Assembly (NCBI RefSeq): GCF_019550795.1
Contig: NZ_CP080545.1
Location: forward strand, 1,507,501-1,571,500
Length of the DNA: 64,000 nucleotides
Source of the DNA: Paenibacillus sp. sptzw28
GTDB taxonomy: Bacteria; Bacillota; Bacilli; Paenibacillales; Paenibacillaceae
Direction: 5' to 3'
The notes under the pieces are model-generated. The model saw only the letters and a program-made list of their open reading frames with translations, was not told the origin of the DNA and did not search any database. Of the stretch, positions 12,194-51,334 are shown in pieces. How positions within the stretch are numbered: the stretch's first letter is position 1; the number at the start of each line of letters is the position of its first letter. The translations under genes and the position numbers were made by a program.

Positions 12194-12211
12194 AGGTACA
12201 GTGAATATTAT

Positions 12212-12245: not shown

Positions 12246-12325
12246 CAGAAATATATTTGAAATTAAACAAACAAAATGGTATTATGTCTATTAAATTAAT
12301 AAACGTGATATGGAGTTGTTTGTTT

Positions 12326-13090: not shown

Positions 13091-13122
13091 AGCTTGGCAG
13101 CATTAGAGGAGGAATGTTTCAG

Positions 13123-13539: not shown

Positions 13540-13597
13540 GCATGCAGGCTGCAGCAGCCCTTGAGGGTTGAATATTTTACAATGAGGGGTGCCGGAA

Positions 13598-19022: not shown

Positions 19023-19161
19023 AGCATCACCTCCCTTCCGGGAGACTAGCCAACCGCCCTCGCAAGCCATTCTATCGCACTTTGATTATACAGGAACGTA
19101 TGTTCCTATGTCCATTGTTAGTTGGGACAACTTGGATTTCTTCAAGTTGTCCTTATTTATG

Positions 19162-20322: not shown

Positions 20323-20474
20323 AGGTTTGGTGGCTCCTGTCATGATGGTTTCGAGCTTACATATATCAATTGGACCAAGAACGTCCTATCGTTTCGTTTG
20401 TCGGAAGGCCGGCGGGTTAATCGCCAGTTCACATTGTAACATGCTTTACCTCAAAACTAGTTTACCACATTTAC

Positions 20475-20499
20475 TTAGTTTGTTTAATGGACAAACAAA
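20475..20499. promoter_or_regulatory. xylO operator upstream of xylR
   Basis: TTAGTTTGTTTAA then TGGACAAACAAA form an imperfect dyad matching the Bacillus xylO pattern. It differs from the xylA copy at one base. Confidence 0.85.
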
Positions 20500-20579
20500 C
20501 ACGATGGTGAAAGTGCAAGATCAAACGCAGCAAAGCATTATGGTCCCTTTCAGATAGCGTGTGACCAACCACAATAAAA

Positions 20580-20634
20580 TTATCCCATAATAAATAAAAG
20601 CTGCTGTTTCAGCAGCTGTTCATTTATGGGATAA
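20580..20634 (-). terminator. double-stem terminator after the 20696 gene
   Basis: Perfect outer arms TTATCCCATAA/TTATGGGATAA enclose a perfect inner hairpin AGCTGCTG/CAGCAGCT. On the minus strand the inner hairpin is followed by TTTTATTTATT, placing it after the gene at 20696-21136. Confidence 0.75.
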
Positions 20635-20695
20635 CTTTACAGTATCCGATATTATAAAATAGTTTCTTGTCCAATCAGCTATAGGAAATTTTATA

Positions 20696-21136
20696 TCAAT
20701 CATCGCAATAAGCAACAGCATTGAAGCTCTCCGGGCCGACCCGGGTCAGGGTCGAACCAAGATTAGCAATACCACGGATAAACGCGGTATAGACGAGTAG
20801 ATTGGACGGAGGCGGAGGTACATTATAATCCGATCCCGTAACGGTAAAAACGCGCATGAGGGGCCCCGGATTGTCCCCCTCACTAAAGATTGCGTTATAA
20901 ACCTGCGGATCTGTTGACCGCGTTCCACGTACAACAAATATTTCCACAACTGCATCCGATGCCGCCGAAATATTAATCGTTGCAGTCGCCGTGAATTGGA
21001 CGCGAATGATTCCAACGGGGTTGATGCAGTCAAGACCTACTTGAGCGAAAAGTTCCGGATCCATTCCAAAAGTATCCGAAATCGAAGAGCTGAAACTTGC
21101 ATTTTGCGAAGTTCTGGCGTCTAGTAAACGTGCCAT
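20696..21136 (-). CDS. conserved beta-rich protein, possible spore-surface protein
   Basis: 146 residues, Ser/Thr/Asn-rich and beta-rich, without signal peptide or membrane helix. The beginning MARLLDARTSQNASFSSS and the later VQFTATATINISA and AFIRGIANLGSTLTRVGPESFNAVAYCDD stretches are suggestive of small spore-coat or exosporium jelly-roll proteins of Bacillales (such as ExsC-like), but this is a weak resemblance. AGGGAGA lies about 12 bases before ATG. It sits alone between xylR and xylA, with its own terminator, so it is probably not part of xylose metabolism. Confidence 0.45.
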   Translation of the reverse strand: MARLLDARTSQNASFSSSISDTFGMDPELFAQVGLDCINPVGIIRVQFTATATINISAASDAVVEIFVVRGTRSTDPQVYNAIFSEGDNPGPLMRVFTVTGSDYNVPPPPSNLLVYTAFIRGIANLGSTLTRVGPESFNAVAYCDD

Positions 21137-21301
21137 CGACAGTTCAGTCTCCCTATGTCACTAGTTATGTTATGTAGACAGGCCAAGAGGTGCTTGGACA
21201 AATGCAGTAATGTTAATAAATCGATTGAACGAGCCCTGCTTGTCTCCCATCGGATGAAGCAGCCCGTCTTGTAAATTTTTCACCGGCACCCTCAATAACC
21301 C

Positions 21302-21326
21302 TTAGTTTGTTTAATAGACAAACAAA
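21302..21326. promoter_or_regulatory. xylO operator of xylAB
   Basis: TTAGTTTGTTTAA then TAGACAAACAAA, the second copy of the XylR dyad. The candidate -35 box TAGACA (21315-21320) is inside it, so bound XylR would block polymerase. Confidence 0.88.
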
Positions 21327-21344
21327 GTTATTTTATGCTATGCT
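21315..21344 (+). promoter_or_regulatory. candidate xylAB promoter
   Basis: -35 TAGACA and -10 TATGCT are separated by 18 bases and overlap the operator on the left. Confidence 0.5.
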
Positions 21345-21360
21345 TGTTGCAGGGCGCTGC

Positions 21361-21376
21361 AAGGAAACGTTTACAT
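21361..21376 (+). promoter_or_regulatory. cre site for CcpA
   Basis: AAGGAAACGTTTACAT matches the cre consensus WTGNAARCGNWWWCAW at 15 of 16 positions. It lies between the promoter and xylA, so CcpA would act as a roadblock when glucose is present. Confidence 0.75.
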
Positions 21377-21435
21377 TTATGCGTCGATATCATCATTTTT
21401 ACCATTCCATTCCATTCAAGGAGGCCGTTTATTAA

Positions 21436-22749
21436 ATGACTTATTTTAAAAATGTCGGCAAAATCGCCTACGAAGGAAAAGGCTCGGACAATCCGCTTGC
21501 ATTCAAGCATTATAACCCAAAAGAGACCGTACTCGGCAAAACGATGGAGGAGCATCTTCGTTTCGCTGTCGCATACTGGCATACATTTACAGGCTCCGGC
21601 TCGGATCCGTTCGGCGTTGGAACAGCTGTCCGCGCATGGGACCGCCCGGACGCAATGGATCAGGCTAAAGCCCGTGTCGAAGCGAATTTTGAATTCCTCG
21701 AGAAGATCGGCATTCCTTACTACTGCTTCCATGACCGCGATATCGCCCCTGAAGGCGAGACGCTGCAGCAAACGAACAAGAACCTTGATATTATCGTCGA
21801 TATGCTGGAATCCAACATGAAGTCATCGGGCGCGAAGCTGCTGTGGAACACAGCCAATATGTTCACGAACCCGCGTTTCGTTCACGGCGCAGGCACGACG
21901 TCCAATGCGGAAGTCTATGCTTACGCCGGCGCGCAGCTGAAGAAAAGCCTTGAAATCGGCAAACGCCTCGGCGCTGAGAACTACGTGTTCTGGGGCGGCC
22001 GCGAAGGCTACGAAACGCTGCTTAACACGGATATGGCGCTTGAGCTCGACAACCTGGCACGCCTGTTCCATATGGCGATCGCTTATTCGAAGGAAATCGG
22101 ATTCGGCGCTCAATTCCTAATCGAGCCGAAGCCGAAGGAGCCGTCGAAGCATCAGTATGATTTTGACGCTGCAACCACCATTGCATTCCTGCAAAAATAC
22201 GACTTGAAAGAGTACTTCAAGCTGAACCTCGAAGCCAACCATGCGACGCTGGCAGGCCATACGTTTGAGCACGAAATCCGCGTTGCTGCAATCAACGGCA
22301 TGCTCGGATCGCTTGATGCGAACCAAGGCGATCTGCTGCTCGGATGGGATACCGACGAATTCCCGACCGACCTGTACGCAACGACGCTGACGATGTACGA
22401 AGTGCTGAAAGCCGGCGGAATCGGCAAAGGCGGCGTCAACTTCGACGCGAAGGTGCGCCGCGGTTCGTTCGAGGACGAGGACCTCTTCCTCGCGCACATC
22501 GCTGGTATGGACAGCTATGCATGGGGACTTAAAGCGGCTGCCAAGCTGATCGAAGACAAGGTTCTTGACAACATTGTGGACAACCGCTACCGCAGCTTCC
22601 GGGACGGCATCGGCGCGGAGATCGTTTCCGGCAAAGCGACGCTGCAATCCTTGGAGCAGTACGCCCTGCAGAACAACCCGATCAAAAACGAATCCGGCCG
22701 TCAAGAGCGCATCAAATTGCTGCTCAGCGAAGTTATTTTCAGCGTATAA
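21436..22749 (+). CDS. xylA: xylose isomerase
   Basis: 437 residues, class II length. It converts D-xylose to D-xylulose in the cytoplasm using two divalent metals. All key residues are visible: H99 and D102 (YCFHDRD), E230 and K232 (LIEPKPKEP), E266 and H269 (LNLEANHA), D294 (GSLDANQGD), D305/D307 (GWDTDEFP) and D337 (NFDAKVRR). AGGAGG lies about 10 bases before ATG. Control is by the xylO and cre sites upstream. xylB follows 19 bases after the stop. Confidence 0.97.
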
Positions 22750-22768
22750 AAAGGAGGTCCGTTTTCAA

Positions 22769-24265
22769 ATGTCTTATGTCATTGGGATCGACCTTGGAAC
22801 AAGCGCGGTGAAGGCGCTGCTCCTCGACAGGAGCGGCGCGGTTCTCGCGGAAGCGACGCGCAGCTACCCGCTCTTTCACGAGCATACGGGCTGGAGCGAG
22901 CAGCGTCCGGACGACTGGGTTGAAGGAACGCTGGAAGCGGTTCGCGAGCTCGTGCAGTCATCCGGAGCAGCCGCCGATGCGATCGAAGGCATCAGCTTCT
23001 CCGGCCAGATGCACGGTCTTGTACTGCTCGACTCGGCAGGAAACCCGGTGCGCAGCGCGATCCTATGGAACGATACGCGTACAACGGCGGAATGCCGCGA
23101 GATCGAGCAGACGCTCGGCGCAGGACTTCTGAGCATCACCCGCAATCCGGCGCTCGAAGGCTTCACGCTTCCGAAGATTCTATGGGTACGCAAGAATGAA
23201 CCGGAGCTCTTCGCGCAAGCGGAGCTGTTCCTGCTGCCGAAGGATTATGTGCGCTACCGGCTGACCGGCGCGCTGCATATGGATTATTCCGACGCTGCAG
23301 GCACGCTGCTGCTGGACGTTGCGGCCAAATCGTGGAGCGGCAACGTTCTTGCCTCCTTCGGACTGCCTGAATCATTCTGTCCGCCGCTTATCGAATCGCA
23401 CGGCCAAGTAGGCACACTGCTGCCGGAGCAAGCGATACGAACAGGCCTGTCGCCGTCGACAAAAGTATTCGCAGGCGGTGCGGACAATGCGTGCGGCGCG
23501 ATCGGCGCCGGAATACTGAAGGACGGCCTGACGATGTGCAGCATCGGCACGTCGGGCGTTATTCTCTCCTATGAGCAGGGAAGCGGCAGCGACTATGCGG
23601 GGAAGGTGCACTTCTTCAACCACGGCAAGGAGGACGCCTTCTATGCTATGGGCGTCACTTTGGCGGCCGGCTACAGTCTCAGCTGGTTCAAGAACACGTT
23701 TGCCAAGGGCGAGTCGTTCGATGATCTGCTTGCCGGCGTTGGGGATGTTCGTCCAGGCGCGAACGGCCTGCTGTTCACGCCGTATATCGTTGGCGAACGG
23801 ACGCCGCATGCCGACGCGGTCATCCGCGGGAGCTTTATCGGCATTGACGGCTCGCACGAACGGGTTCATTTTGCCCGGGCGGTAATGGAAGGCATCACGT
23901 TCTCGCTCAATGAATCCGTCGATCTGTTCCGCCAAGCCGGCAAGACGGTCGATACGATCGTTTCCATCGGCGGCGGCGCTCAAAATCCGGTCTGGCTGCA
24001 AATGCAGGCCGATATATTTGGTGCCGACGTCGTTGCGCTCGAGAACGAGCAGGGACCCGGGCTTGGCGCCGCCATGCTTGCAGCTCACGGCTGCGGCTGG
24101 TTTGACAGTCTGGATGAATGCGCGGACAGTTTCGTGAAGCGCGCTTCCGTCTATAAGCCGCAGCCTGCGGCAGTGGATGCTTATGCAGGGCTGTTCCGGG
24201 TCTATCAGGATGTTTATGGACAAACAAAGGGACTGAACGAGGCGCTTAAGTCTTTCAGAGGTTAA
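22769..24265 (+). CDS. xylB: xylulokinase
   Basis: 498 residues, FGGY carbohydrate kinase. It phosphorylates D-xylulose to xylulose 5-phosphate for the pentose phosphate pathway. Visible motifs: the ATP-binding start GIDLGTSAVKALL, substrate loop GQMHGLV, GGADNACGAIGAG in the hinge and the second ATP motif GGGAQNPVWLQMQADIFG. Start ATG has AAAAAGGAGG upstream; the reading frame is open further up inside xylA but that part is only overlap. A partial XylR-like sequence occurs near its 3' end (24211-24228). Confidence 0.96.
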   Translation: MSYVIGIDLGTSAVKALLLDRSGAVLAEATRSYPLFHEHTGWSEQRPDDWVEGTLEAVRELVQSSGAAADAIEGISFSGQMHGLVLLDSAGNPVRSAILWNDTRTTAECREIEQTLGAGLLSITRNPALEGFTLPKILWVRKNEPELFAQAELFLLPKDYVRYRLTGALHMDYSDAAGTLLLDVAAKSWSGNVLASFGLPESFCPPLIESHGQVGTLLPEQAIRTGLSPSTKVFAGGADNACGAIGAGILKDGLTMCSIGTSGVILSYEQGSGSDYAGKVHFFNHGKEDAFYAMGVTLAAGYSLSWFKNTFAKGESFDDLLAGVGDVRPGANGLLFTPYIVGERTPHADAVIRGSFIGIDGSHERVHFARAVMEGITFSLNESVDLFRQAGKTVDTIVSIGGGAQNPVWLQMQADIFGADVVALENEQGPGLGAAMLAAHGCGWFDSLDECADSFVKRASVYKPQPAAVDAYAGLFRVYQDVYGQTKGLNEALKSFRG

Positions 24266-40849: not shown

Positions 40850-40887
40850 GAAAATAAAGTTCTTTAATTGAAAATAAAGTTCTTTAA
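40850..40887 (+). repeat. two 18-bp direct repeats
   Basis: GAAAATAAAGTTCTTTAA occurs at 40850 and 40870, 20 bases apart. Related AAATAAAGT units lie at 41301-41354. Confidence 0.75.
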
Positions 40888-40914
40888 CGGATGCATAAAA
40901 GTAAAAGGACGGAG

Positions 40915-41219: not shown

Positions 41220-41300
41220 GTTCCCTATTTCGTTCAATTGATACATTTCTAAGGAAGCAGGGGATGGTCCCAGCTTTTTTTGCATAATAATGTTCGATGA

Positions 41301-41354
41301 GAATAAAGTTTTAGACCGAAATAAAGTGTTACACTGAGAAATAAAGTGTTAGAC
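41301..41354 (+). repeat. three tandemly spaced GAAATAAAGTGTTAGAC repeats
   Basis: Units start at 41301, 41318 and 41338. The spacing and repetition are like transposase-binding ends of IS21, Tn7 or Mu-like elements. No transposase is nearby. Confidence 0.65.
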
Positions 41355-41368
41355 TCACGCGGCGCCGC

Positions 41369-41383
41369 TAAACTAACTGGCAG
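41369..41383 (+). repeat. cassette repeat A (right half)
   Basis: TAAACTAACTGGCAG, the right-end motif of the repeat family, with no left half. It marks the left edge of the cassette-like array. Confidence 0.7.
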
Positions 41384-41478
41384 TTATGCGTTACCAATCC
41401 CTTATAGCTTACGTATAAGATGTAAATGGAAATTGCATATTGAAACCGTTGAATAACTTATTTGCTGACATTCCCTAA

Positions 41479-41787
41479 TTGAAGAAAGAGGAAGTGGAGA
41501 ACATTTATAGAGTAAAAACGAAGTGGAAAATAATGATGACAGTTTTTACTGCCCTGCTTATATTTGCTATCTTTATTTGGTTTTCGAAAACGACGGTTAC
41601 CTACGAATATGCAACAATTGTTGAGAAAACACAAAACTCAATTTCCTTAGAAAATGAAAGTGGGCGGAAAGCGAGCGTATCAACATCTTTGAATATTAGT
41701 GATTTAATTGCGGTTGGAGAGAAGTATTGGGTTAAATATGAGAAAAAGAGATGGCAATTACCGAGCTTAATATCAATTGAGCATTGA
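41479..41787 (+). CDS. small single-pass membrane protein
   Basis: 102 residues with one membrane helix (about 16-33, MMTVFTALLIFAIFIWF) and an outside beta-rich tail (ATIVEKTQNSISLENESGRKASVS). The start is the TTG at 41479, with no strong ribosome site directly before it; the internal AGAGGAAGTGGAG would serve a start further down. Its TGA stop is inside the following repeat. Family unknown. It is the first unit of the cassette-like array. Confidence 0.55.
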   Translation: MKKEEVENIYRVKTKWKIMMTVFTALLIFAIFIWFSKTTVTYEYATIVEKTQNSISLENESGRKASVSTSLNISDLIAVGEKYWVKYEKKRWQLPSLISIEH

Positions 41788-41855
41788 ACTAACGGGAGTG
41801 GAATGAAGCAGATTGCATCGGTAGTCTGCTTTTTTTTCATTGAACTAACTGGCAG
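41782..41855 (+). repeat. cassette repeat B (complete)
   Basis: Left motif TTGAACTAACGG, hairpin AAGCAGA/TCTGCTT followed by eight T's, right motif TTGAACTAACTGGCAG. It is nearly identical to repeat C across the three-gene cassette, apart from a 6-base deletion. It can also act as a terminator for the gene at 41479. Confidence 0.88.
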
Positions 41856-41901
41856 GATAACGTGGCGGATGATGTATCGTATTTCGGCCTTTTTTCGGAT
41901 G

Positions 41902-41929
41902 AAAAAAGCCCTTCCTTGTTAGGGAAGGG
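41902..41929 (-). terminator. terminator of the MFS/oxidoreductase operon
   Basis: On the minus strand CCCTTCC pairs with GGAAGGG, followed by CTTTTTT. Confidence 0.8.
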
Positions 41930-41955
41930 TAATCTAGAATGTACTTTTGCTATCA

Positions 41956-43365
41956 TCAAGCGTCTGCCATTGGTTTATCGTCCGTTCCGGCGTTGCGTAT
42001 GAATAGTCCCGCGCAGGCGCCTATGACCGCAACAACCAGGATGACGGTAAAAGCATCTCGAAATGCTTGCAGCCATGCATCCGGCAAAGAAGCGGATTTC
42101 GCATAAATATCCAGCCTGCTTGTCAGAACGGTCGTCATGCCTGACACCGCAAAGGAGACCATGACTTGCTGTATGGAGCCCGTTAGAGAAGTAACGCGGC
42201 CGACCAAAGACTTCGGAGCGGCCTTCATTAAATAAGTTTGAAGAGGCATCATGCAAAGCCCTGCGCTTGCACCAAGCAGCACAATCGCCAACAAGAGCAT
42301 CCCGTTTCCTGTATCTGGTTCGATTCGGTATAATACGAACATTGCAAAGGCTAAACAGGATGTGCCGGCAACGGCCAGCCAACGCACGCCGAAATTATCG
42401 AACAACCTTCCGGAGAACTGCATTACGATCCCCAAAGCAACCGCGTAGGGAATCATAAAGGAGCCGGCTTCAAACGCTCCGAAGTCATTCACAACCTGAA
42501 GAAATTGCGGAATGAGATACAAGGTTCCAAAAAATGCGAACTGCGCGATTCCTAGCACTAGACTTCCTTGTGCGAAATGACCTGACCTGTAGACGCGCAG
42601 CTCTAGCAGAGGGTTAGACCGGCGCAGCTGGGTGACCACAAGCAAAAACAATGCCATTCCGCCTGTAGCCAATCCCCCAATGGCCCCCCAAGAACTCCCC
42701 TCACTCGCACTGATGCCGTATGACAAGCTGACGAAAGTAAGCGGGGCAAGAAGAAATCCCGCCAAATCCAGTTCCGCCGCGGCTTGGCTCTTAATCCTTG
42801 GAAGGTGGTGGATACCGGTGTACAAGCCGAAGATGCAAACCGGGATATTCATAAGAAATATCCACTGCCATCCAACAGAGTCCGCCAGATAACCTGAGAA
42901 AGCCGGACCAAGCGCAGGAGCGAGCAAGATAGGTATGCTTACCTTTGCCATCAATCTTCCGACTTGGCCTGGAGGACTCAATCGATAAATATAGGCGAAT
43001 CCGATGGGGGCAATCATGCCCCCGCCCAGCCCCTGTACGATGCGGAATAGGATTAGCTGCTCGATTCCTGAGGCCACCGCGCATAATAAAGAACCCGCGG
43101 CAAACCATCCGATCGCCAAGAGAAAGATCCGCTTCGCGCCATACCGGTCGGACAGCCAACCGGCAAGCGGAATCACGGCAGCTTGTGCAAGCACATACCC
43201 TGTTACCGTCCAATGAACGGTATTATAAGTACTGTGGAATTCTTTGATTAGTCGGGGAAGCATCACATTCATGACCGTATGGTCCAGATAGACAATGAAC
43301 ATCGCGGTCATTATGGCGGATAGTGATCCGGTCATCCTCCTTGCCGCTGTGGCACTCCCCGGCAT
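41956..43365 (-). CDS. MFS multidrug transporter, EmrB/QacA (DHA2) type
   Basis: 469 residues, fourteen predicted helices. Motifs: VYLDHTVMNVMLPRLIKEFH at the first helix, WLSDRYGAKRIFL loop, RIVQGLGGGMIAP and GPAFSGYLADSVGWQWIFLMNIPV, all classic of DHA2 proton antiporters. GAGGAG is 10 bases before ATG 43365; a TTG 30 bases upstream overlaps the next gene. It is second in a minus-strand operon behind the NADP-binding gene and divergent from a TetR repressor, an arrangement typical of drug-inducible pumps. Confidence 0.88.
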   Translation of the reverse strand: MPGSATAARRMTGSLSAIMTAMFIVYLDHTVMNVMLPRLIKEFHSTYNTVHWTVTGYVLAQAAVIPLAGWLSDRYGAKRIFLLAIGWFAAGSLLCAVASGIEQLILFRIVQGLGGGMIAPIGFAYIYRLSPPGQVGRLMAKVSIPILLAPALGPAFSGYLADSVGWQWIFLMNIPVCIFGLYTGIHHLPRIKSQAAAELDLAGFLLAPLTFVSLSYGISASEGSSWGAIGGLATGGMALFLLVVTQLRRSNPLLELRVYRSGHFAQGSLVLGIAQFAFFGTLYLIPQFLQVVNDFGAFEAGSFMIPYAVALGIVMQFSGRLFDNFGVRWLAVAGTSCLAFAMFVLYRIEPDTGNGMLLLAIVLLGASAGLCMMPLQTYLMKAAPKSLVGRVTSLTGSIQQVMVSFAVSGMTTVLTSRLDIYAKSASLPDAWLQAFRDAFTVILVVAVIGACAGLFIRNAGTDDKPMADA

Positions 43366-43384
43366 GTCTGCAGGTCTCCTCGGC

Positions 43385-44032
43385 TTAACCGACAATTTTA
43401 ACGTTGAAATTCATATGGCCGCGTCCCTGATAAATTCTGGAGGATAGAGCCAATAGCATTTCGGTGCCGCGCGCGGAGCTGATGTCCCCGAGATCGATGA
43501 CGCTTTCCCAGCCGAACGATTCCTTCAAGAGGGCAGTGACGATCCGCTTGGCGTCCGCATCATTGCCGCTGACAAATAGGTCATGTTGACCGTCGGCCAC
43601 GCTTTGGGGATTGACCATTATCGCGGATGAAACGGTATTCAGCGTCTTCACCACTTTGGTATCCGGGAAAGCGCGCTGGATCTGCTCGCCAAGGGAATCC
43701 GTGTTGGCTACGGCCAAGGTAAGCTCGCCGTTCGAGAAATCCAGTGGAAGAGCTATGTCTACCAAAACTTTGCCTTGCAGCGCTCGGCTGCCGACTTCGG
43801 ACAATGCTTCGAGAGAAGCAGTACCAGGGGTTGCATTAAAGACAATGTCGCCGTGAACGGCGGCTTCCTGTACGGTGCCGACGCTTACTTTCTCATCTTG
43901 TTGTTGTTGCTCCAGCCAAGCGTTCAGCTTATCTGGGTTTCTCGCACCTAATTTCACGTCGTGTCCCGCTTTGGCGAGTGAGCGGCCTAACATTTGCGCT
44001 GCATTGCCCGAGCCGATAAATCCAATTTTCAT
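43385..44032 (-). CDS. NADP-binding F420-reductase-like oxidoreductase
   Basis: 215 residues. An N-terminal Rossmann motif GFIGSGNAAQMLGRSLAKAGH, then LGARNPDKL for NADP phosphate, FNATPGTA and LVDIALPLDFSNG. Such NADPH-dependent F420-reductase-like proteins are common beside TetR genes in bacteria lacking F420; the substrate is not known. ATG 44032 is chosen because AGGAGGGG lies 7 bases upstream; ATG 44038 abuts it. Confidence 0.78.
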   Translation of the reverse strand: MKIGFIGSGNAAQMLGRSLAKAGHDVKLGARNPDKLNAWLEQQQQDEKVSVGTVQEAAVHGDIVFNATPGTASLEALSEVGSRALQGKVLVDIALPLDFSNGELTLAVANTDSLGEQIQRAFPDTKVVKTLNTVSSAIMVNPQSVADGQHDLFVSGNDADAKRIVTALLKESFGWESVIDLGDISSARGTEMLLALSSRIYQGRGHMNFNVKIVG

Positions 44033-44048
44033 TTCCATCCCCTCCTAA

Positions 44049-44068
44049 TATACATACAGGTTAGTATA
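44049..44068. promoter_or_regulatory. TetR-type operator 1
   Basis: TATAC-N10-GTATA dyad in the divergent region, close to the oxidoreductase gene. Confidence 0.7.
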
Positions 44069-44075
44069 CTTACAA

Positions 44076-44104
44076 TTGACAGTATACATACCGATCTGTA
44101 TAAT
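44076..44104 (+). promoter_or_regulatory. consensus promoter of the tetR-type gene
   Basis: TTGACA and TATAAT, both perfect, separated by exactly 17 bases. Operator 2 lies over the spacer and -10 box. Confidence 0.85.
44083..44102. promoter_or_regulatory. TetR-type operator 2
   Basis: A second TATAC-N10-GTATA dyad, overlapping the promoter spacer, implying autorepression. Confidence 0.72.
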
Positions 44105-44130
44105 GTCAATCATAAGAGGTGAGCGTAAAT

Positions 44131-44712
44131 ATGAGTAGAACAGCCGGGAATAAATCAGCAGCCCGTGAGCAGCTGCTGCATACGGCAAGCAGGCTGTTTT
44201 TCGAAAGAGGCTTCCACGCTGTTGGAGTCGACACGATCGTTGCCGAATCAGGCATTACGAAGATGACGATGTATAAACATTTTCCGTCTAAAGATCATTT
44301 AATCGTTGAAATATTGGAGCGGTCGAGCGAGATCTATTGGGATTGGTTCGAGAGCGTGATTCAAGGCATCTCGGAACCACAGGGACAGCTTACCGCGATT
44401 TTCGATGCCGTTGCCAAAGGGCATTCGAACTCCCCGAGATCGACCTACTGTCTCTATCAGAATGTGGCCGTCGAGTTCCCGGATCCCGAACATATTGCGA
44501 ACCAAGCGGCTGTCGTGCACAAACAATCCATCGTGAATCGTTTGCAAGCCATCTGCGAACGGGCAGGCTTGAAGTCCCCCGATACGCTGGCTAGACAGCT
44601 GTTTGTGCTGCTGGAAGGATTCTGCATATCTTCCCGGTTCTTCGGTGCGGACAGTCCTGCGGCGGACGTCGTTCTTGCGGCCAAGGCTTTGGTTGATATG
44701 CATCGCCAATGA
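44131..44712 (+). CDS. TetR-family repressor
   Basis: 193 residues. The N-terminal helix-turn-helix is typical (LLHTASRLFFERGFHAVGVDTIVAESGITKMTMYKHFPSKDHLI, about residues 12-55); the rest is a helical ligand domain with a YCLYQN segment. AAGAGGTGAG is 8 bases before ATG 44131. It is divergent from the oxidoreductase and MFS genes and likely represses both and itself through the two operators. Confidence 0.9.
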   Translation: MSRTAGNKSAAREQLLHTASRLFFERGFHAVGVDTIVAESGITKMTMYKHFPSKDHLIVEILERSSEIYWDWFESVIQGISEPQGQLTAIFDAVAKGHSNSPRSTYCLYQNVAVEFPDPEHIANQAAVVHKQSIVNRLQAICERAGLKSPDTLARQLFVLLEGFCISSRFFGADSPAADVVLAAKALVDMHRQ

Positions 44713-44884
44713 AACAAGCGAACCGCAAGAGAGCCAGTATTGTAGACGACCATTACTGGATCTTCTTGTTAATACGCACTGGCGTATTAGCGGGGAGCAC
44801 TTGGATAACCAAATCATCAACTTGAGAAGATGGGTTGAGTCGGAAATAATATGAAAAGCAGTGTCCCTAGAGAACAACGCAGTA
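44713..44884 (+). other. spacer with small inverted repeats
   Basis: Holds TAATACGC/GCGTATTA near 44770 and CCAGTA/TACTGG near 44735. No gene seen. Confidence 0.4.
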
Positions 44885-44964
44885 CATTGAAGTAACGGAG
44901 ACGATAGTGGAATGAAGCAGATTGCATCGGCAGTCTGCTTTTTTTTCATTGAAGTAACGGGCAG
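44885..44964 (+). repeat. cassette repeat C (complete)
   Basis: Left motif TTGAAGTAACGGAGACGATAG (from 44887), hairpin AAGCAGA/TCTGCTT with T-run, right motif TTGAAGTAACGGGCAG (44949-44964). Both ends carry GAAG where both ends of copy B carry GAAC. Confidence 0.88.
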
Positions 44965-45072
44965 CATAGTTTAACAATTTAATGAAAAGGATTTTCCCCA
45001 TGACATGTGAAATCTAATAGTTACAAGTCATGATCGAGAAGTTATTGCTCGTCGAGCTGAAAAGGAGGAGAC

Positions 45073-46551
45073 ATGGGAGTAAAGTTTGCCAATATTCAAG
45101 TCAGGAACCTTGATCCTACCCACGTTCAAACACATATGCCAGATTGTATTGTTAGGGTAATGTCTGAAGGTTGGACGACAGTGTTGCGGGAAGATTTTCA
45201 GATTGGTGAAGTCGAACGAGAAGCTCATAGATTATCAAAACAAATAAATAACGTAGTGCTGTCTGTGGGTTACTACGACGACGATGTATTGGCTCTTCAC
45301 TTGTTCCACAAAGGGAAGATGATCTCTTCGGATATTTCCAATGACGCGTGTGGATATCTTGCAAAACGCGGAAATCCAGCACGTTTTCAACAAAGCCTTG
45401 AGTTGGACCTCAAAGATGCTTCGCTTTTAAAGGAAGTTTTTCAATGCGAGCATTTGAAGGAGAAAGTTGCGCTATTGGAGCATCTACTGGGTGTTCCACT
45501 ATGGATACACTATGATGACGTCGAACTATCGGAGAATAAATTAATAAAAAGACAGTTCGATAAGTCCGTAGTTCAAGATTACTGTGCTGAATCAAAGGCT
45601 AAACGCCAAATAATAAATAAAACCAAGGCATACCTTGTAACAGAATTTGAAGGAATGCCGATATGTAACACAGCTACTTCGTCAGTTGTAAAACTGCCCT
45701 ATTCCGAGGGTCGCTATCTCGTTGATGATCCTGATAATTTTGAATTGCAGACCGATGGGACTCTGATTCGTACAATACAAGAGACTGTTGATGAGAATAG
45801 ATACCTTCATCTTAAACTTCGTGATGGTGCTAGCCTTTATTCAACCTATGGTTCAAAGCAAGTCCTGTTTGAGTGTGATGTGGCAGGTGAAAAGAAGTGG
45901 GAGTTTGAGGTGGGGTACTTAAAAGTACCCCCTACATTCCACCTAAATGCGTTTTACATGCACATGCAAAAAGAGAATGAAATGCCCCTAGTTGTAAAAA
46001 TAAATCGGCAGGGGAAGATTGAATCTAGTTTAAAGCTGGATACAAGAGGTGGCTGTCATTGGAGGAATTTCTTATTTGATAGTGATAATCGCATTTATTA
46101 CTGCTGTACTCAAGAAGAAAATGGTCAGAACCGAACTCGTATTTACTGTCTGAGTCAACAACTTGAGATCCTGGATCAGCTCGAAATTGATGATACGAGT
46201 TTTGATTCAATAATGGATAAAAAATCCCATGTTATTTATTTATATATTTTTGATAAGAAATTAATTAAGATTGACCTTCGACCATTTCGGATAAGCACTA
46301 GTAGGAAGTGTACCGATTTCCTTAGTTTTTTGCATGTTGATCGTAGCAGAAATGTCTATATTCAAACAGGAGAAAGCACATTGGAAGTTAGGAATTCCGA
46401 TCTAGAGATTCTCTCCCGTCACAAGTTGAAGGGACAAATATTTAATAGACTATTGAATGAACAAGACAGAGCCTTCTTTGCCACTTGGAATGGTCAACAA
46501 TGGGATGCAGGCAAGGAACAAAGTAAGATTAGACTTTACGAAATATTTTAA
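45073..46551 (+). CDS. large protein of unknown function with a propeller-like C-terminal half
   Basis: 492 residues, AAAGGAGGAG before ATG. The N-terminal 180 residues are alpha-beta with charged helices (REDFQIGEVEREAHRLSKQ; DDDVLALHLFHKGKMISSD). From about 210 on there is a series of beta-strand repeats (KVPPTFHLNAFYMHM, HWRNFLFDSDNRIYYC, FLHVDRSRNVYIQTG) resembling propeller blades. There is no signal peptide or catalytic motif I recognise. It is a single-gene cassette of clearly lower GC than the flanking core genes. Confidence 0.6.
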   Translation: MGVKFANIQVRNLDPTHVQTHMPDCIVRVMSEGWTTVLREDFQIGEVEREAHRLSKQINNVVLSVGYYDDDVLALHLFHKGKMISSDISNDACGYLAKRGNPARFQQSLELDLKDASLLKEVFQCEHLKEKVALLEHLLGVPLWIHYDDVELSENKLIKRQFDKSVVQDYCAESKAKRQIINKTKAYLVTEFEGMPICNTATSSVVKLPYSEGRYLVDDPDNFELQTDGTLIRTIQETVDENRYLHLKLRDGASLYSTYGSKQVLFECDVAGEKKWEFEVGYLKVPPTFHLNAFYMHMQKENEMPLVVKINRQGKIESSLKLDTRGGCHWRNFLFDSDNRIYYCCTQEENGQNRTRIYCLSQQLEILDQLEIDDTSFDSIMDKKSHVIYLYIFDKKLIKIDLRPFRISTSRKCTDFLSFLHVDRSRNVYIQTGESTLEVRNSDLEILSRHKLKGQIFNRLLNEQDRAFFATWNGQQWDAGKEQSKIRLYEIF

Positions 46552-46561
46552 GGGGAATTTT

Positions 46562-46583
46562 CTGAACTAACGGAAACGATAGC
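46562..46583 (+). repeat. cassette repeat D (left half)
   Basis: CTGAACTAACGGAAACGATA then GC, 10 bases after the preceding stop. A GATAG/CTATC pairing continues rightwards to about 46613, but a canonical right motif is absent. Confidence 0.75.
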
Positions 46584-46756
46584 CCAACAATGGATTACAC
46601 GCAATTGGTCTATCAGTTTTATAAAACCTCTTAACCGCACTGTTCCTGTTCAATGCGAATTATCCATAGATTGATCCTTCAACAAGTGTCATGTCGGTAA
46701 TATTTCCCTTATCCGGTGCCGATATATTCTTTATAACCATCGGAGGGGCGAATTTC

Positions 46757-47501
46757 ATGGCAAAGAGACGAAGACGTAAGAAAAAAGAGGATCCTGTTGC
46801 AGCACACTTGTCATGTTATTGATGTTAGGAGCATTTATTGCAACTTTTTCGGCTACGAAATCACTTGGGGTGGCCGGATTTGCCGCAGGAATGGTTTTCG
46901 CTGCTGGTCTTGGCATCGTGTTCTTCATCGGAATGCTTAAAGCTGAGCGACTAAGGCTATCGGGCATAGCTGAGGTCGACAAAATGGACGGTCATAAATT
47001 CGAGCATTATCTCGGTCACTTGTTCCGTTCCCAGGGTTACCATGCAGAAGTCACACAGGCTGCTGGTGATTTCGGAGTAGATCTTCTCCTTAAGAAACAA
47101 GGAAAGAAGATCGCCGTACAAGCCAAACGGTACAAGGGGAATGTCGGACTTGAGGCAGTTCAGCAGGTACAGGCTGGAAAGGCACATTATGGAGCATCAG
47201 AAGCGTGGGTAGTCACAAACAATGACTATACCGATCAAGCTTACACACTTGCTAAATCGAATGGCGTTCGATTAATCGCCAGAAACGAGCTAATTGAATT
47301 GATGCTTAAGATAAAAACGCCAAAGAAACCAGCGTCGTCATCAAAAGGGGCTACGGCCAAACAAACCGCAGCGCTTTCGTCAAAGCAAGATAGTATATGC
47401 GATGTTTGTGGCGGTACCATATGATTATAAGGAAGAGCACCAAGGGCGAGGTCTATGCGTGCTCGAACTTCCCTGGATGTAAGAATATCCAAGCAATTTG
47501 A
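46757..47501 (+). pseudogene. Mrr-like restriction endonuclease with topoisomerase-type zinc finger, two frameshifts
   Basis: A well-placed start (GGAGGGG, ATG 46757) begins MAKRRRRKKKEDPVAA and stops 21 codons in. The next frame opens at 46813 with two membrane helices and an Mrr catalytic domain (MDGHKFEHYLGHLFRSQGY, GDFGVDLLL-KQGKKIAVQAKRYKG: the D-QAK nuclease motif). That frame ends in CDVCGGTI; the third frame, from 47421, completes the zinc finger as IIRKSTKGEVYAC-FPGC. Two small indels thus break one gene of about 248 codons. The 46813-47424 stretch could still be translated, but ATG 46813 lacks a ribosome site. Confidence 0.78.
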
Positions 47502-47632
47502 TATAACCCCGCAGGGATGCCATTTCCTGTGGGCATTTGTTTATCTTGAAGACGTGACTACGGGAGCTACCGGGGAACGACAGTGCAGCGATGGATCCGA
47601 TCCATCGCCTTTAATGCGTTACTCTCTGACCA

Positions 47633-47699
47633 TTGAACAAACGGATACTATAGCTCAACAATCACAAGAACGAGGCTGCCGGCATAGATCGGCAGCCTC
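47633..47699 (+). repeat. cassette repeat E (left half and hairpin)
   Basis: Left motif TTGAACAAACGGATACTATA then GC, and a perfect hairpin GAGGCTGCCG/CGGCAGCCTC (47672-47699). No right motif; the next gene's ribosome site follows directly. Confidence 0.82.
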
Positions 47700-47722
47700 T
47701 GTAATTGGAAAGGAGACTCCAA

Positions 47723-48091
47723 ATGTCGAAGGAAAAGCAAGAGTTACTTTTCGAAAGTTTAAAGGGGATAAAGGATACTTGGGTAGATTTTTCAGTAAAT
47801 AGTTTTAATCCTCAATCAAGAATAACGTGGGCTGACTCCAATGAAGCATATAAATTGCTACAAGAAAAGTTGAAATCAGAGGACGACCTTAATGCCATTT
47901 CTATAATACAAAACGAACTTGTAGAGGCTGTTATTTATAGGATTATGGAACTTATTGATGGGTATAGTGATTTGAAATATTCTGTGGATTTGATTGATAA
48001 GGATACTAAAAAATCTTTAAGGGAGGTTGGAGAATTGCATGATGGTTTTATGAACTATTTATATGAACATGAGGGGAAAAATACAAAGTGA
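47723..48091 (+). CDS. small acidic helical protein, unknown
   Basis: 122 residues with AAAGGAGA 7 bases before ATG. Mostly helical and charged (SNEAYKLLQEKLKSEDDLNAISIIQNEL; SVDLIDKDTKKSLREVGELHDGF). Size and charge resemble polymorphic-toxin immunity proteins, but no toxin is beside it. One-gene cassette between repeats E and F. Confidence 0.6.
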   Translation: MSKEKQELLFESLKGIKDTWVDFSVNSFNPQSRITWADSNEAYKLLQEKLKSEDDLNAISIIQNELVEAVIYRIMELIDGYSDLKYSVDLIDKDTKKSLREVGELHDGFMNYLYEHEGKNTK

Positions 48092-48094
48092 ACA

Positions 48095-48116
48095 CTGAAC
48101 TAACGGAGACGAGAGC
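48095..48116 (+). repeat. cassette repeat F (left half)
   Basis: CTGAACTAACGGAGACGAGA then GC, 3 bases after the preceding stop codon. Confidence 0.75.
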
Positions 48117-48218
48117 ATAATGACTTTCACAACAAAGCTACCTTAGAGATGGTCGACAGTTCTGTTTCTCTTGGGGCTCAATTTAAAGAATGGGGAAAAT
48201 GTCCACATAGGAGGAAAG

Positions 48219-48776
48219 ATGAAGTTCATACTTATATTCGGTCCTCAGGCTGTAGGGAAGATGACAGTGGGTCACGAACTTGAGAAAATCACGTCTTTGA
48301 AGTTGTTTCACAACCATCAGACAATTGAGCTACTTCATCCTTATTTTGGCTTCGGACCTGAAATGTGGCGGTTGTCCGATCTATTTCGCAAGGAAATCTT
48401 TGAGCAGATGTCTCAAAGTAATAGCGTGGGATTCATGTTCACATACGTTTGGGGGTTTGATTTACCAGGCGACTGGGAATTTGTCGAACAAATTTGTGGC
48501 ATCTTTGAATCCAAGGGGCATGAGGTATGCTTTGTGGAGCTCGAGGCTGATTTAGAGGAAAGACTTGCGCGCAACAAGTCCCCGCATCGCTTGCACCATA
48601 AGCCGACTAAGCGTAACGTCGAACGATCAGAAAAGGATTTAATTCAAACTATGGAGAATCATCGGTTGAACTCGTTACCCGGTGAGATCACGAGGAAAAA
48701 CTACATTCGAATTAAAACTACAAAACGAACACCAGCAGAAACGGCACAATTGATTAAAGAGCGATTCCAGATCTAG
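48219..48776 (+). CDS. P-loop kinase-like protein (AAA/shikimate-kinase type)
   Basis: 185 residues. Walker A is GPQAVGKMTVG at residues 8-18; a DD/ED-type lid with an RLARNKSPHR-like arginine-rich segment follows at about 115-130. The layout is like small nucleoside or sugar kinases found on mobile cassettes. AGGAGGAAAG before ATG 48219. The substrate cannot be assigned. Confidence 0.7.
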   Translation: MKFILIFGPQAVGKMTVGHELEKITSLKLFHNHQTIELLHPYFGFGPEMWRLSDLFRKEIFEQMSQSNSVGFMFTYVWGFDLPGDWEFVEQICGIFESKGHEVCFVELEADLEERLARNKSPHRLHHKPTKRNVERSEKDLIQTMENHRLNSLPGEITRKNYIRIKTTKRTPAETAQLIKERFQI

Positions 48777-48780
48777 ATCA

Positions 48781-48866
48781 TTAAGCTAAAGGGTACAATA
48801 GAGGAATAATTATGACTGGTACAGGCGCCGCGGAGACTTGCTCCTGATCGTTGAAGTAACTGGCAG
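48781..48866 (+). repeat. cassette repeat G (diverged left, intact right)
   Basis: Right motif TTGAAGTAACTGGCAG (48851-48866) is intact. A diverged left motif TTAAGCTAAAGGGTACAATA lies at 48781, with a CAGG/CCTG hairpin between them. Confidence 0.7.
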
Positions 48867-48927
48867 TAAAATGGATAAAGAAAGAGTTTACATGCGAAAA
48901 AATCTACTGTATGTTAGGGGGGTAAAT

Positions 48928-48963
48928 ATGGAATATGGGGAGGATAATTCTAATGGGTATTAA
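48928..48963 (+). CDS. possible 11-residue leader peptide
   Basis: ATG with a strong AGGGGGG site upstream reads MEYGEDNSNGY and stops inside the first codons of the VOC gene. Translation of it would run ribosomes onto the next start, so it may couple or modulate the VOC gene. Confidence 0.35.
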   Translation: MEYGEDNSNGY

Positions 48964-49330
48964 AACTGTTATTCATCATCAAGTACCTGTTTCTCATTTA
49001 GAAAATGCTGCACAATGGTATGTGAATATTCTTGGATTTGAACTTGAAAGACCGATAAATTCTGAATCAAAAATGGCTTTTTTACATCTCCCTGATAGAG
49101 GAGCAGCCGTCCATCTAATTCAAACAGATGATAAAACCCGTCTACGCATTTCCACTGAAGATAAAGACAATTATATCATTGGATTCTATTGTGAGAATAT
49201 TAGCGAGCTGCAACAAAAACTAACCGATAGTGGTTCCCCAGCGACACTTGAAGATGCTGGTGGGTGTGGCTGGTGGCTCTATTTTTGCGACATTGACGGA
49301 AATCGGTATTTCGCCGCTGAGGATAAATAA
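48953..49330 (+). CDS. VOC (glyoxalase/bleomycin-resistance fold) protein
   Basis: 125 residues, one VOC repeat pair: VIHHQVPVSHLENAAQWYVNILGFEL at the start, AAVHLIQ in the middle and WLYFCDIDGNRYFAAE at the end. Members bind metals or antibiotics or isomerise small molecules; which applies here is unknown. GGGGAGGA is 8 bases before ATG 48953. One-gene cassette between repeats G and H. Confidence 0.85.
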   Translation: MGIKTVIHHQVPVSHLENAAQWYVNILGFELERPINSESKMAFLHLPDRGAAVHLIQTDDKTRLRISTEDKDNYIIGFYCENISELQQKLTDSGSPATLEDAGGCGWWLYFCDIDGNRYFAAEDK

Positions 49331-49348
49331 ATCTACATATTATCCTTG

Positions 49349-49422
49349 TTCAATTAACGGATAACGATAGCTCCATGACGAAGGCTGCTGGATGATCGGC
49401 AGCCTGCTCAACTGACTGGCAA
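49349..49422 (+). repeat. cassette repeat H (complete)
   Basis: Left motif TTCAATTAACGGATAACGAT then AGC, hairpin AGGCTGC/GCAGCCT (49382-49405), right motif CTCAACTGACTGGCAA. Confidence 0.85.
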
Positions 49423-49454
49423 AAATGATTTCAGTTACTATTCGGGGGTGTACT

Positions 49455-50057
49455 ATGGAATTAATTGAGTCGATGCGTGATTCTTTTTGTGTCGATGACC
49501 GTTATGACCATTTTAAATACGTTTTACAACAGGTAAAGATCGGTGGACTATTTTTAGAATTTGGCGTGAGAGACGGGGATTCAATTAATTATATCGCTAA
49601 TATTATATCTCCACATATCATATATGGTTTTGATTCGTTTGAGGGATTGCCTGAAACTTGGGAAAGGAAAAGGGATGGTTCACTAAATTATGAAGCAGGA
49701 ACTTTCTCCGTGGAGAAAATACCCGAGGTACGAGCTAATGTGGTTTTAATAAAGGGGTGGTTTAGCGACACGTTACCAATATTTAATGAAATCGAAAAGA
49801 TTGCTTTCATCAATATAGATTCTGACTTATATAGTTCTGCTAGGACGATTCTAACTGTTCTAAATGAACAGATTGTAAATGGATCAATTCTGTACTTTGA
49901 TGAAATTACGGGATGGGGGAATTTACATGAACAATACGACAATTGGCAAAATGGAGAATATAAAGCCTTAAAAGAATGGCTTAAGGATTACGGAAGGGAA
50001 GTGGAACCTGTATCGCGAAATAATCGATATGGTGCCGCTGTAAGGGTGATACGATAA
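49455..50057 (+). CDS. TylF/MycF-like SAM-dependent methyltransferase
   Basis: 200 residues. The SAM-binding region is FLEFGVRDGDSINYIAN, followed by GFDSFEGLPETWERK and the metal-binding FINIDSDLYSSARTIL and LYFDEITGWGN motifs seen in TylF/MycF O-methyltransferases of macrolide synthesis. Here it stands alone, so it may modify a sugar or small molecule outside antibiotic synthesis. GGGGGTG precedes ATG 49455. One-gene cassette between repeats H and I. Confidence 0.8.
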   Translation: MELIESMRDSFCVDDRYDHFKYVLQQVKIGGLFLEFGVRDGDSINYIANIISPHIIYGFDSFEGLPETWERKRDGSLNYEAGTFSVEKIPEVRANVVLIKGWFSDTLPIFNEIEKIAFINIDSDLYSSARTILTVLNEQIVNGSILYFDEITGWGNLHEQYDNWQNGEYKALKEWLKDYGREVEPVSRNNRYGAAVRVIR

Positions 50058-50136
50058 TTACGCTAACGGATACCGATAGCTCCATAGGACAGGCTGCCGT
50101 CATGATTGATCGGCAGCCTGCTTAACTATCGGGCAA
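50058..50136 (+). repeat. cassette repeat I (complete, best palindrome)
   Basis: It starts at the base after the methyltransferase stop. Outer arms CCGATAG (50073) and CTATCGG (50126) enclose a perfect AGGCTGCCG/CGGCAGCCT hairpin. Right motif CTTAACTATCGGGCAA ends the array. Confidence 0.88.
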
Positions 50137-50344
50137 GATTGCGTAATATTAGGAAATTTCATAAGTGCGAAGCAGCTGGTAAATAAACGGGGAGTGTTCC
50201 ATTGATGGCTACGATTCTAAGCTACAGCAACTCTTTCATGAACCGATCAAACGGGTCACCTATCTCGATCCGAGTCTGTAAAATAGATTGTGTAAACTCC
50301 TAAACCTATTACAATGGAAGTAGAAGAAAGGTTGGGGAGAACAC
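50137..50344 (+). other. junction between array and IS256 remnant
   Basis: A short open stretch reads DGYDSKLQQLFHEPIKRVT to TAA near 50281. It may be the tail of a lost gene; I do not recognise it. Confidence 0.3.
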
Positions 50345-50500
50345 ATGGGATTATGGACGAAACAGCAACTCCGGCAGTTCATCAAGGAGAATAAATTGGT
50401 CTCGGCGCAGGATGCACAGAATGCGTTGAAAGAGCTGTTTGCCGAAACGCTGCAGGAGATGCTGGAAGCCGAGATGGATGAACATCTGGGCTATGAGAAG
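50345..50500 (+). pseudogene. IS256-family transposase, N-terminal fragment
   Basis: The first 52 codons read like a Mutator/IS256 transposase start (QNALKELFAETLQEMLEAEMDEHLGYEK), with GGTTGGGGAGAAC before ATG. Beyond LGYEKH the sequence no longer matches and soon stops; the DDE catalytic part is gone. It marks past transposition at the right edge of the cassette array. Confidence 0.8.
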
Positions 50501-51334
50501 CACGTTAGCTCAGTGGCGCCTGCCACCAGTCAGTCGTCTAAGACCTTTGAATTTGGATCCCCCAGCTCGTTCAGTCGGGCTGACCAAGCGAACGACCGGT
50601 TCTAAGTCGGGCAGTAGCGGCCCGGCCAAGATCCCTTAGGTTCCATTGGTCAGCGCTTCCTCCTTTGCGTTCCGTAGCCTTTTTGAAAGCAGGAACTGGA
50701 AGAAGGTACGTTTGGTTCTGTTGGTTTCAAAACTAGAGTTGTCTACCAGATTTAAGGCGCTCAGCACGATGCATCTTGTAAATTGCTCAATTGTAAGAAG
50801 CAGTGAATTAACAACAGAAGTACTCAAGAAATTTTATCTGAGCTGCAAAAAATATGTCTGACCTTTTCACATAATAGTGCATTTGGATAAATGTGTAATC
50901 ACGTGATTACAGACTTTCTCTGGAATACAGCCTTGATATCGGGAAAAGGGTGCATGTATAACCAAAAATGATCGAAAATAGTCCGCAGGGGCTTCAGTAC
51001 CTGAAATAACGTACAATACAATTGTAATAAATAGTAAATTATGGAAGTATTGTGGGAGAAATATACAACGGTTACAAGTAACAATGAAACTACATCGATG
51101 ATATTGCTTCTGTCAATAGAAAAGCAACAGGAACTGTATCGGTAGATTATATGGGGGTGAAAGCTTGACTTAATAAATCAATAACTTTATGTATCTGACT
51201 ATAGAAAAGCAGTTAACCTGAAATAAGGGATTCAAACCAGCCAGTTTGCAATAGAAAAAAGTGGAGTTAATTAATTACACAAAGATTAATGGCAAACTGT
51301 CTAGCTTTTATAATAAAATATAAGGTGGGGGACA
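50501..51334 (+). other. AT-rich non-coding stretch
   Basis: No gene supported. It includes a perfect 16-bp palindrome GTAATCACGTGATTAC at 50895-50910 and scattered short frames without ribosome sites. Confidence 0.5.

Follow-up and report, generated by a model that had tools for sequence, protein, structure and literature searches.

Are the short genes that alternate with a shared repeat in the chromosome of Paenibacillus sp. sptzw28 chance neighbors, or are they cassettes of a mobile system? The question arises from a 64,000-nucleotide stretch of this genome (contig NZ_CP080545.1, positions 1,507,501 to 1,571,500 of the forward strand; "the window" below, with positions counted from its first nucleotide), in which repeats and small transcription units follow one another from 41368 to 50141. 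A note made earlier without database searches, the sequence-only reading, had proposed that a Firmicute here carries a site-specific cassette system, integron-like or of another kind. Our genome comparisons support this proposal, both by cassettes shared between genomes and by a recombinase, here called IntD, whose gene is borne by such arrays. We conclude that the window very probably holds a short array of cassettes from a site-specific recombination system of Paenibacillaceae that resembles an integron. With no more than a fragment of the recombinase gene left in the genome, this array is probably a relic.

Repeat sites and the window array

The pattern TTGAACTAACNG, with up to two mismatches, matched the window 32 times on both strands against 14.65 matches expected, and none of 100 shuffles reached 32. 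With GAACTAACGGANACGATAG and up to three mismatches, 30 matches were found in the whole genome vs. 5 for the reversed control. The repeat copies are real and lie, all on the plus strand, where the sequence-only reading had placed them. Its description of one palindromic repeat with two halves had to be given up: the two parts, termed LEFT (core TTNARCTAAC-GGRNAC-GATAG) and RIGHT (core CTAAC-KGGCAG), are direct repeats of two related core sites with a variable hairpin between them.

The anatomy of the site was determined from 240 unique complete sites, picked with patterns that contained the core motifs. LEFT consists of an outer arm (aTTaAgCTAAC), a spacer of 6 (74 sites) or 7 bases (166 sites; the commonest spacers are GGGACAC and GGGTAC) and an inner arm (GATAGtTcAAt). 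After a central region with a median of 41 nt between the inner arms, RIGHT follows with an inner arm (gTT.AgCTAAC), a spacer GGGCAG (187 sites) or TGGCAG (20 sites) and an outer arm (aTAgtt.AA). As the original RIGHT pattern contained GGCAG, the spacer was rechecked with a pattern of the arm only. The strict arm was found 33-125 nt downstream of 215 among 839 LEFT cores, with GGGCAG behind it in 103 cases and TGGCAG in 11; in the control region it occurred in 57/822, and GGGCAG stood behind it in 3. Each of the two cores has imperfectly inverted arms on either side of a spacer of 6-7 bp, which is the usual form of a tyrosine-recombinase core. In 163 of 235 sites the central region folded better than every one of its 50 mononucleotide shuffles, with stem sequences that differ from site to site; T runs stand behind some of the hairpins, and hairpin subfamilies recur within the sptzw28 genome. 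A scan of 5 sources of 144 kb at the Rfam gathering threshold assigned the repeats to no family.

The array of the window is composed as follows.

41368-41390, plus: copy A, RIGHT core only, start of the array; CTAACTGGCAG at 41373
41479-41787, plus: cassette 1, small protein of 102 amino acids (aa), whose stop falls within copy B
41784-41860, plus: copy B, truncated LEFT core, hairpin and RIGHT core (41840-41860)
41956-44712, both strands: cassette 2, atypical, with MFS (minus), oxidoreductase-like (minus) and TetR-like (plus) genes, taken from the list of open reading frames (ORFs) and named by eye
44887-44969, plus: copy C, complete site with LEFT core, hairpin and RIGHT core
45073-46551, plus: cassette 3, protein of 492 aa, no family assigned
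46562-46582, plus: copy D, LEFT core only
46813-47424, plus: cassette 4, Mrr-like restriction endonuclease domain (PF04471)
47562-47621, plus: additional degenerate site, LEFT core (~47562-47582, 2 mismatches) and hairpin
47633-47705, plus: copy E, LEFT core and hairpin; RIGHT core not found
47705-48091, plus: cassette 5, protein of 128 aa, no Pfam match
48095-48115, plus: copy F, LEFT core only
48171-48776, plus: cassette 6, protein of 201 aa with a P-loop-like motif by eye, no Pfam match
48778-48871, plus: copy G, complete site with degenerate LEFT, hairpin and RIGHT
48935-49330, plus: cassette 7, VOC/glyoxalase-like protein (PF00903)
49349-49427, plus: copy H, LEFT, hairpin and degenerate RIGHT
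49425-50057, plus: cassette 8, TylF-like methyltransferase (PF05711)
50058-50141, plus: copy I, LEFT, hairpin and degenerate RIGHT, end of the array

The nine copies A-I of the sequence-only reading keep their positions, but a tenth, the degenerate LEFT copy at ~47562-47582, had been missed. Its division into complete and half copies was refined: A has RIGHT only, D and F have LEFT only, E has LEFT and the hairpin, and LEFT of B is truncated. The plus orientation is kept even beside the minus-strand MFS and oxidoreductase genes, and copies B and C are 91% identical across 68 nt. The cassettes mostly hold one gene, as had been claimed, with cassette 2 and its three genes as the exception. The stop codon inside copy B and the stops close to the LEFT starts were likewise recovered, the latter also over many loci, where stops gather ahead of LEFT cores (298 of 620 within -60 to +30 and 100 of 620 within -12 to +6). 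Among the gene names given earlier, Mrr-like, VOC and TylF-like methyltransferase are backed by Pfam, but the "P-loop kinase" and the small unknown protein are without a match. The small membrane protein of cassette 1 (Sigma_reg_N) and the large 492-aa product gave only weak Pfam matches below the cut-off. No integrase had been seen in the window, and the gene of IntD is indeed missing from it.

The repeats are present across Paenibacillaceae, with dozens of copies in the sptzw28 genome; per-genome core counts of 1-3 are uninformative, as the reversed control gives 0-3 per genome. The sptzw28 matches lie at 0.98-1.06, 1.14-1.17, 1.55 (the window), 2.25, 3.19, 3.24-3.29, 4.56, 5.81 and 6.02 Mb, and single matches with three mismatches at 4.32 and 4.96 Mb. 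Forward matches (n = 19) fell between 0.98 and 2.26 Mb in 18 cases, with one at 6.02 Mb; reverse matches (n = 11) fell between 3.18 and 5.81 Mb in 10 cases, and the remaining one is the palindromic shadow of a forward match. The orientation of the repeats shifts with position, as would be expected if it followed replication. Of 39 loci from several genomes, 38 have most of their cores on the G-rich strand, and the exception has 6 and 4 cores; the skew was taken over the whole locus including its genes, which are mostly on the site strand, so that leading-strand placement and gene orientation are inseparable in this count. Integron arrays are likewise strand-consistent.

Cassettes as units of exchange

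Comparison of genomes shows that they have cassettes in common, each a gene with the site that follows it, and that the shared stretches break off at cores, most clearly at RIGHT beside KGGCAG. Cassette X is common to three genomes at 94-96% identity (G210, of genus label g13, and G259 and G221, both of g33). The three genomes are unrelated in the sequence leading up to the TAACKGGCAG core, and immediately behind this core the homology sets in. In G210 and G259 the homology ends after the gene, the LEFT core and the hairpin, at the next CTAACGGGCAG, and the sequences beyond are unrelated; G221 is without the downstream site. A filled and an empty locus were found in Paenibacillus albidus (L249) and P. 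tyrfis (L254), the former with ~1.55 kb of additional DNA. This insert consists of a 400-aa gene with its own site and lies exactly at AACTAAAGGGCAG, behind IntD; both flanks are only 74% identical, so that the pair, from two species, does not represent close strains. Cassette Z, too, starts at a RIGHT core.

The ends of homologous blocks were also counted. Blocks that overlapped transposases or IntD were removed, which left 58 of 740; an end was not counted if it fell outside an array, close to the end of a contig or no more than 30 bp from another end. In the remaining blocks, free of insertion sequences (IS), 68 of 184 ends lay within 60 bp of a core, while 2000 random draws gave 16.6 on average and never more than 31. 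In these three lines of evidence, cassette X, the filled/empty pair and the homology ends, cassette boundaries between genomes coincide with the repeats, a check that the sequence-only reading had called for.

The array of the window itself was compared with the family, two candidate stretches being scored per genome and matches listed best first. Some part of it was matched at E 1e-15 or better in 134 of 394 family genomes, sptzw28 included. None of the matches listed for the 393 other genomes reaches across two cassettes of the window; a gene order conserved in every relative together with the repeats, named earlier as the result that would speak against a cassette system, was not what we found. 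The relative of cassette 3 in G339 (74% match) also has a LEFT core behind it. For cassette 6, the match in G073 (86%) covers 48105-48780, i.e. the copy F core to the edge of copy G, and a core was found at its start and none at its end. No core was seen beside the relatives of cassette 4 in G009 (79% match; 3.8 kb examined) and cassette 6 in G216 (88%; within the 3.6-3.8 kb examined).

A larger array, in G008, extends across some 35 kb with ~30 LEFT cores, and the small genes between these lie mostly on one strand. Pfam domains were detected in 8 of 10 products, which we chose among about 30 genes of this one array: GNAT, DinB, HTH, DUF3221, Schlafen AlbA, NUDIX and two methyltransferases. 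Over all loci examined, the RIGHT-to-LEFT intervals (n = 419) measure 729 bp in the median; their longest ORF lies on the site strand in 341 and on the opposite strand in 58, no 60-aa ORF is present in 20, and more than one ORF of 80 aa occurs in 88. A similar leader (TTCCAATATGTGTTTAT...) opens several cassettes in L249, L254, L033 and the G008 array (L093), and is perhaps a shared promoter or start region.

Because a circularized cassette would bring both of its flanks face to face, we compared the start of each cassette with its own end. For 385 non-redundant cassettes (from 467), own start and own end were complementary at 5.34 of 12 positions vs. 5.13, a value reached in 8 of 5000 shuffles and in 19 of 5000 within genomes; on 9 flank bases alone the numbers were 19/5000 and 60/5000. 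The two flanks of one site displayed no pairing excess (3680 of 5000 shuffles, 136 sites). The own-start/own-end excess is small and no more than supportive; with inner arms free of covariation, it falls short of showing that the whole site folds as a single strand.

IntD, the probable recombinase of the arrays

IntD is a XerC/D-like tyrosine recombinase of 280 aa. All 22 fetched loci that bear it have cores (locus L102, with no IntD in it, was left out), 175 on the strand of IntD and 13 on the opposite one, compared to 8 and 4 for the reversed controls. For the named loci, i.e. the best 80 of 178 relatives, the numbers were 713 and 85, with 145 and 99 in the controls. Upstream of IntD, at a distance of 60-140 bp, 56 of 77 named loci have a LEFT core, and none has a RIGHT core there without LEFT; on the other side, 43 of 76 have a RIGHT core no more than 120 bp behind IntD; in 35 of the 73 loci judged on both sides IntD is flanked by both (loci with less than 200 bp on one side were left out of that side's count). 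In the fetched loci the corresponding numbers were 16/22, 12/22 and 10/22. A search for a recombinase near larger arrays, as the sequence-only reading had advised, led to IntD, whose gene often occupies the place between LEFT and RIGHT that other copies give to the hairpin. Intact IntD genes are present, for example, in Paenibacillus castaneae, P. soyae and Cohnella lupini.

The residues R, K, H, R, H and Y, which we take to be the catalytic set, are invariant in 13 aligned IntD proteins; the presumed catalytic tyrosine is residue 264. Profiles of XerA, XerC and XerD match IntD with 184-188 bits, below their curated cut-offs (220-335 bits), and the XerD structure 1a0p with 129 bits. The sptzw28 genome has a separate XerD gene (L051, 371 bits, above the cut-off). 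The Xer proteins are the closest to IntD by profile, but IntD differs from them by its low scores and by its tie to cassette arrays. IntD is likely to be the array recombinase. It would bind the inverted arms of each core and recombine RIGHT with RIGHT cores and, less often, LEFT with LEFT; cassettes would be excised as circles and put back in the same orientation. Since IntD can lie inside a site, its gene could travel with an array or be lost, leaving arrays devoid of IntD.

Three other genes of sptzw28 were tried as the recombinase and rejected. The truncated intA (1142 kb, beside an array) was present, among 22 genomes of the genus, only in sptzw28 itself; the frameshifted intB (3187 kb) had no relative in the array loci compared; and intC (3817 kb) heads a different array with long attC-like sites. 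Both intA (L036:5825-6556) and intB (L038:6744-7959) are broken tyrosine recombinase genes beside arrays of this genome.

The frequent position of IntD between LEFT and RIGHT, where short copies carry the hairpin, would also suit small MITE-like units (miniature inverted-repeat transposable elements; LEFT-hairpin-RIGHT) that derive from a small IntD element, are non-autonomous and insert behind immobile genes. The recurrence of hairpin subfamilies within a genome fits such units, as do two IntD copies in G081 that are alike only from the LEFT core onward. Yet in cassette X and in the filled/empty pair gene and site form one unit, homology ends cluster at the cores, and the gene order of the window is not met among the matches listed for the 393 other genomes. 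As the sole explanation this reading is weakened, and we consider it unlikely. Repetitive extragenic palindromic (REP) and MITE repeats are many dispersed copies of a hairpin; the sites studied here resemble them in the hairpin copies and as a possible non-autonomous version of an enzyme-bearing element, but differ in that the shared unit takes in the neighboring gene.

In a search of 398 genomes of the class with the IntD profile, 36 gave a match at E 1e-50; they belong to 24 of the 146 genera covered. The 250-kb plasmid CP053689.1 (L270), recorded as Arthrobacter citreus NEB 577, which is at a guess a misnamed Bacillaceae, encodes a relative with 50% identity in an array of small genes (10042-24187). 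The cores of this array are divergent and follow the same plan, CTAAC-TGATGC-GTTAG and GGCAG-TTTAG, and divergent cores of the same plan are also present at two loci of family f13. Around class-wide IntD relatives a generic core pattern gave 86 matches vs. 34.3 in shuffles over 28 loci, some of which are Paenibacillaceae, with palindromic matches counted on both strands; 10 of the 28 loci were without a generic core in the short flanks examined. A distribution wider than Paenibacillaceae is therefore only partly supported.

These findings also bear on the view that the genes are exchanged by ordinary homologous recombination between hairpin or terminator repeats, with IntD as a bystander. The sites, ~80 bp long and similar to one another, could serve as substrates, and hairpins that fold as well as ours do, some with T runs, are consistent with terminators. 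We nevertheless regard this view as very improbable: the same bases of the RIGHT core are the breakpoints in cassette X and in the filled/empty pair, dozens of genomes have the recombinase gene inside or next to their arrays, and the divergent IntD relatives of the plasmid and of the f13 loci are accompanied by divergent cores of the same plan.

Several observations weigh against the reading of the arrays as cassette arrays served by IntD. Cassette movement is inferred from genome comparison throughout. LEFT and RIGHT do not strictly alternate: gene-length intervals are RIGHT-LEFT in 188 cases, LEFT-LEFT in 163, LEFT-RIGHT in 95 and RIGHT-RIGHT in 91, and only the said 215 of 839 LEFT cores have the strict arm downstream. 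No covariation of the inner arms was found in complete sites, and the own-start/own-end excess is small. The majority of homology ends (116/184) lie away from any core; cassette V starts and cassette Y ends (in the core arm) at LEFT cores; and the GNAT cassette shared by G000 and G008 (93%) has a homology that starts ~50 bp from the core, G008 being without the LEFT core. One or both cores are missing from the expected places in 38 of the 73 judged IntD loci, and the G081 copies of IntD share sequence only from the LEFT core on. The sptzw28 genome has the IntD fragment only, with no core around it over ~7 kb upstream or 9 kb downstream, and G008, with 33 core matches the richest of the compared genomes, is without IntD at E 1e-40.

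Relation to integrons and other systems

The attC consensus is RYYYAAC...GTTRRRY. As the sequence-only reading had stated of the window motifs, the sites do not follow it: the 240 sites show CTAAC-6/7 nt-GATAG and CTAAC-KGGCAG, which are direct and not complementary. The arrays resemble integrons in that cassettes mostly carry one gene in one orientation, with the site behind the gene and exchange at fixed points of the site, and in that arrays without an integrase occur; for integrons the latter are termed CALIN (clusters of attC sites lacking integrases) in PMC9024848. Differences concern the integrase (XerC/D-like here, IntI in integrons), the sites (two direct cores with CTAAC arms vs. the complementary R''/R' boxes of attC) and the place of the integrase gene, here often within the array, between a LEFT and a RIGHT core, in integrons outside it and beside attI. 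The system thus behaves like an integron but fails in three tested features: IntI, the attC consensus and an integrase outside the array. No fixed attI was noticed, and no systematic search for one was made. Integron integrases are described in PMC8138268 as simple tyrosine recombinases with a specific insertion.

The features held in common, i.e. mostly one-gene cassettes in one orientation with the site behind the gene and cassette types such as GNAT, NUDIX and methyltransferases, could also be what is left of a true integron, with IntI and attC, that has degenerated. This is hardly credible, since IntD reaches 90.8 bits against the integron integrase model TIGR02249 (cut-off 265), in two separate stretches, and 62 bits against IntI4 (2a3v), in one short piece, while XerD and XerA structures match it better. 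Moreover, the cores are without the attC consensus, and the same genome contains a distinct integron-like system, with an integrase of its own and long attC-like sites.

The arrays were also compared with the pdif modules of Acinetobacter. Both consist of small gene modules bounded by short tyrosine-recombinase cores; in pdif modules these are dif-like sites served by the Xer system (PMC6449649), whereas a dedicated recombinase is encoded in the arrays studied here. Unlike in pdif modules, the cores are direct, a hairpin separates LEFT and RIGHT, and arrays of tens of genes can occur on chromosomes.

We find it reasonably probable that the system is a counterpart of the integron that evolved in Firmicutes independently of IntI, with an integrase that often sits in the place of the hairpin, the enzyme thus being a passenger along and between arrays. 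It would extend over Paenibacillaceae and also, in a form with divergent integrases and cores, over Bacillaceae-type bacteria, on plasmids and chromosomes alike, and would draw on some cassette families of the second system described below. Integrons are reported to be extremely rare in Firmicutes, with one complete example (Limnochorda pilosa) and a few CALIN, in the IntegronFinder 2.0 paper (PMC9024848). If our proposal is true, Gram-positive bacteria own a gene-shuffling platform with another integrase and another site, which would offer a second case for learning the essential features of integrons. Programs that look for IntI and attC would be expected to miss such arrays, and their cassettes are a reservoir of small genes, many without an assigned function. 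Among the listed titles and abstract openings of the open literature on integrons and cassettes in Paenibacillus, Firmicutes and Bacillota we found no published description of the system, subscription journals and bioRxiv being mostly uncovered by this search.

The second integron-like system lies at C1:3798.6-3818.5 kb of the sptzw28 genome (L118 and L113), and also at L342 and L344. Here intC (381 aa) is followed by ~20 cassettes, most of them with a single gene, whose sites are long and attC-like (TAACACCGTATTCACG ... CGTGAATACAAGAACGTTA). The own start and end of these cassettes are complementary at 9.4 of 12 positions (n = 20) vs. 7.9 for neighbors (n = 18). Relatives of intC were found in 80 of 245 family genomes at E 1e-60, and similar arrays were seen by eye in G266 and G170. 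Two cassette families are common to both systems: a GNAT family (L113, in the intC array, and L034; 61% aa identity over 186) and a 304-aa gene (L344 and L161; 61% over 304).

IS110-type transposase genes, recognized by eye, adjoin LEFT cores in the sptzw28 genome (C1:981-1058 kb; L034:326, L034:5334 and L034:15510; L038:9275), and the constant end of these elements (..CAGGAATG or ..AACCGAGG) directly touches the core. The adjacency test is weak (25/30 vs. 17.2 expected). The direct contact with the core recalls the insertion of IS1111-family elements at integron attC, members of that family being described as targeting attC in PMC11187229.

Further elements were noted around the window array. 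Tandem AATAAAGTNTTAGAC-like repeats, possibly a transposon end, stand directly before copy A (41300-41355 and 40855-40890), and a stretch resembling them also precedes the cassette X site in G259. Directly behind the array, at 50345-50605, lies a truncated IS256-like transposase gene (by eye), a complete similar copy of which is present at L036:9283-10560. At 18833-19079, on the minus strand, the window has an Rfam match to BsrG RNA.

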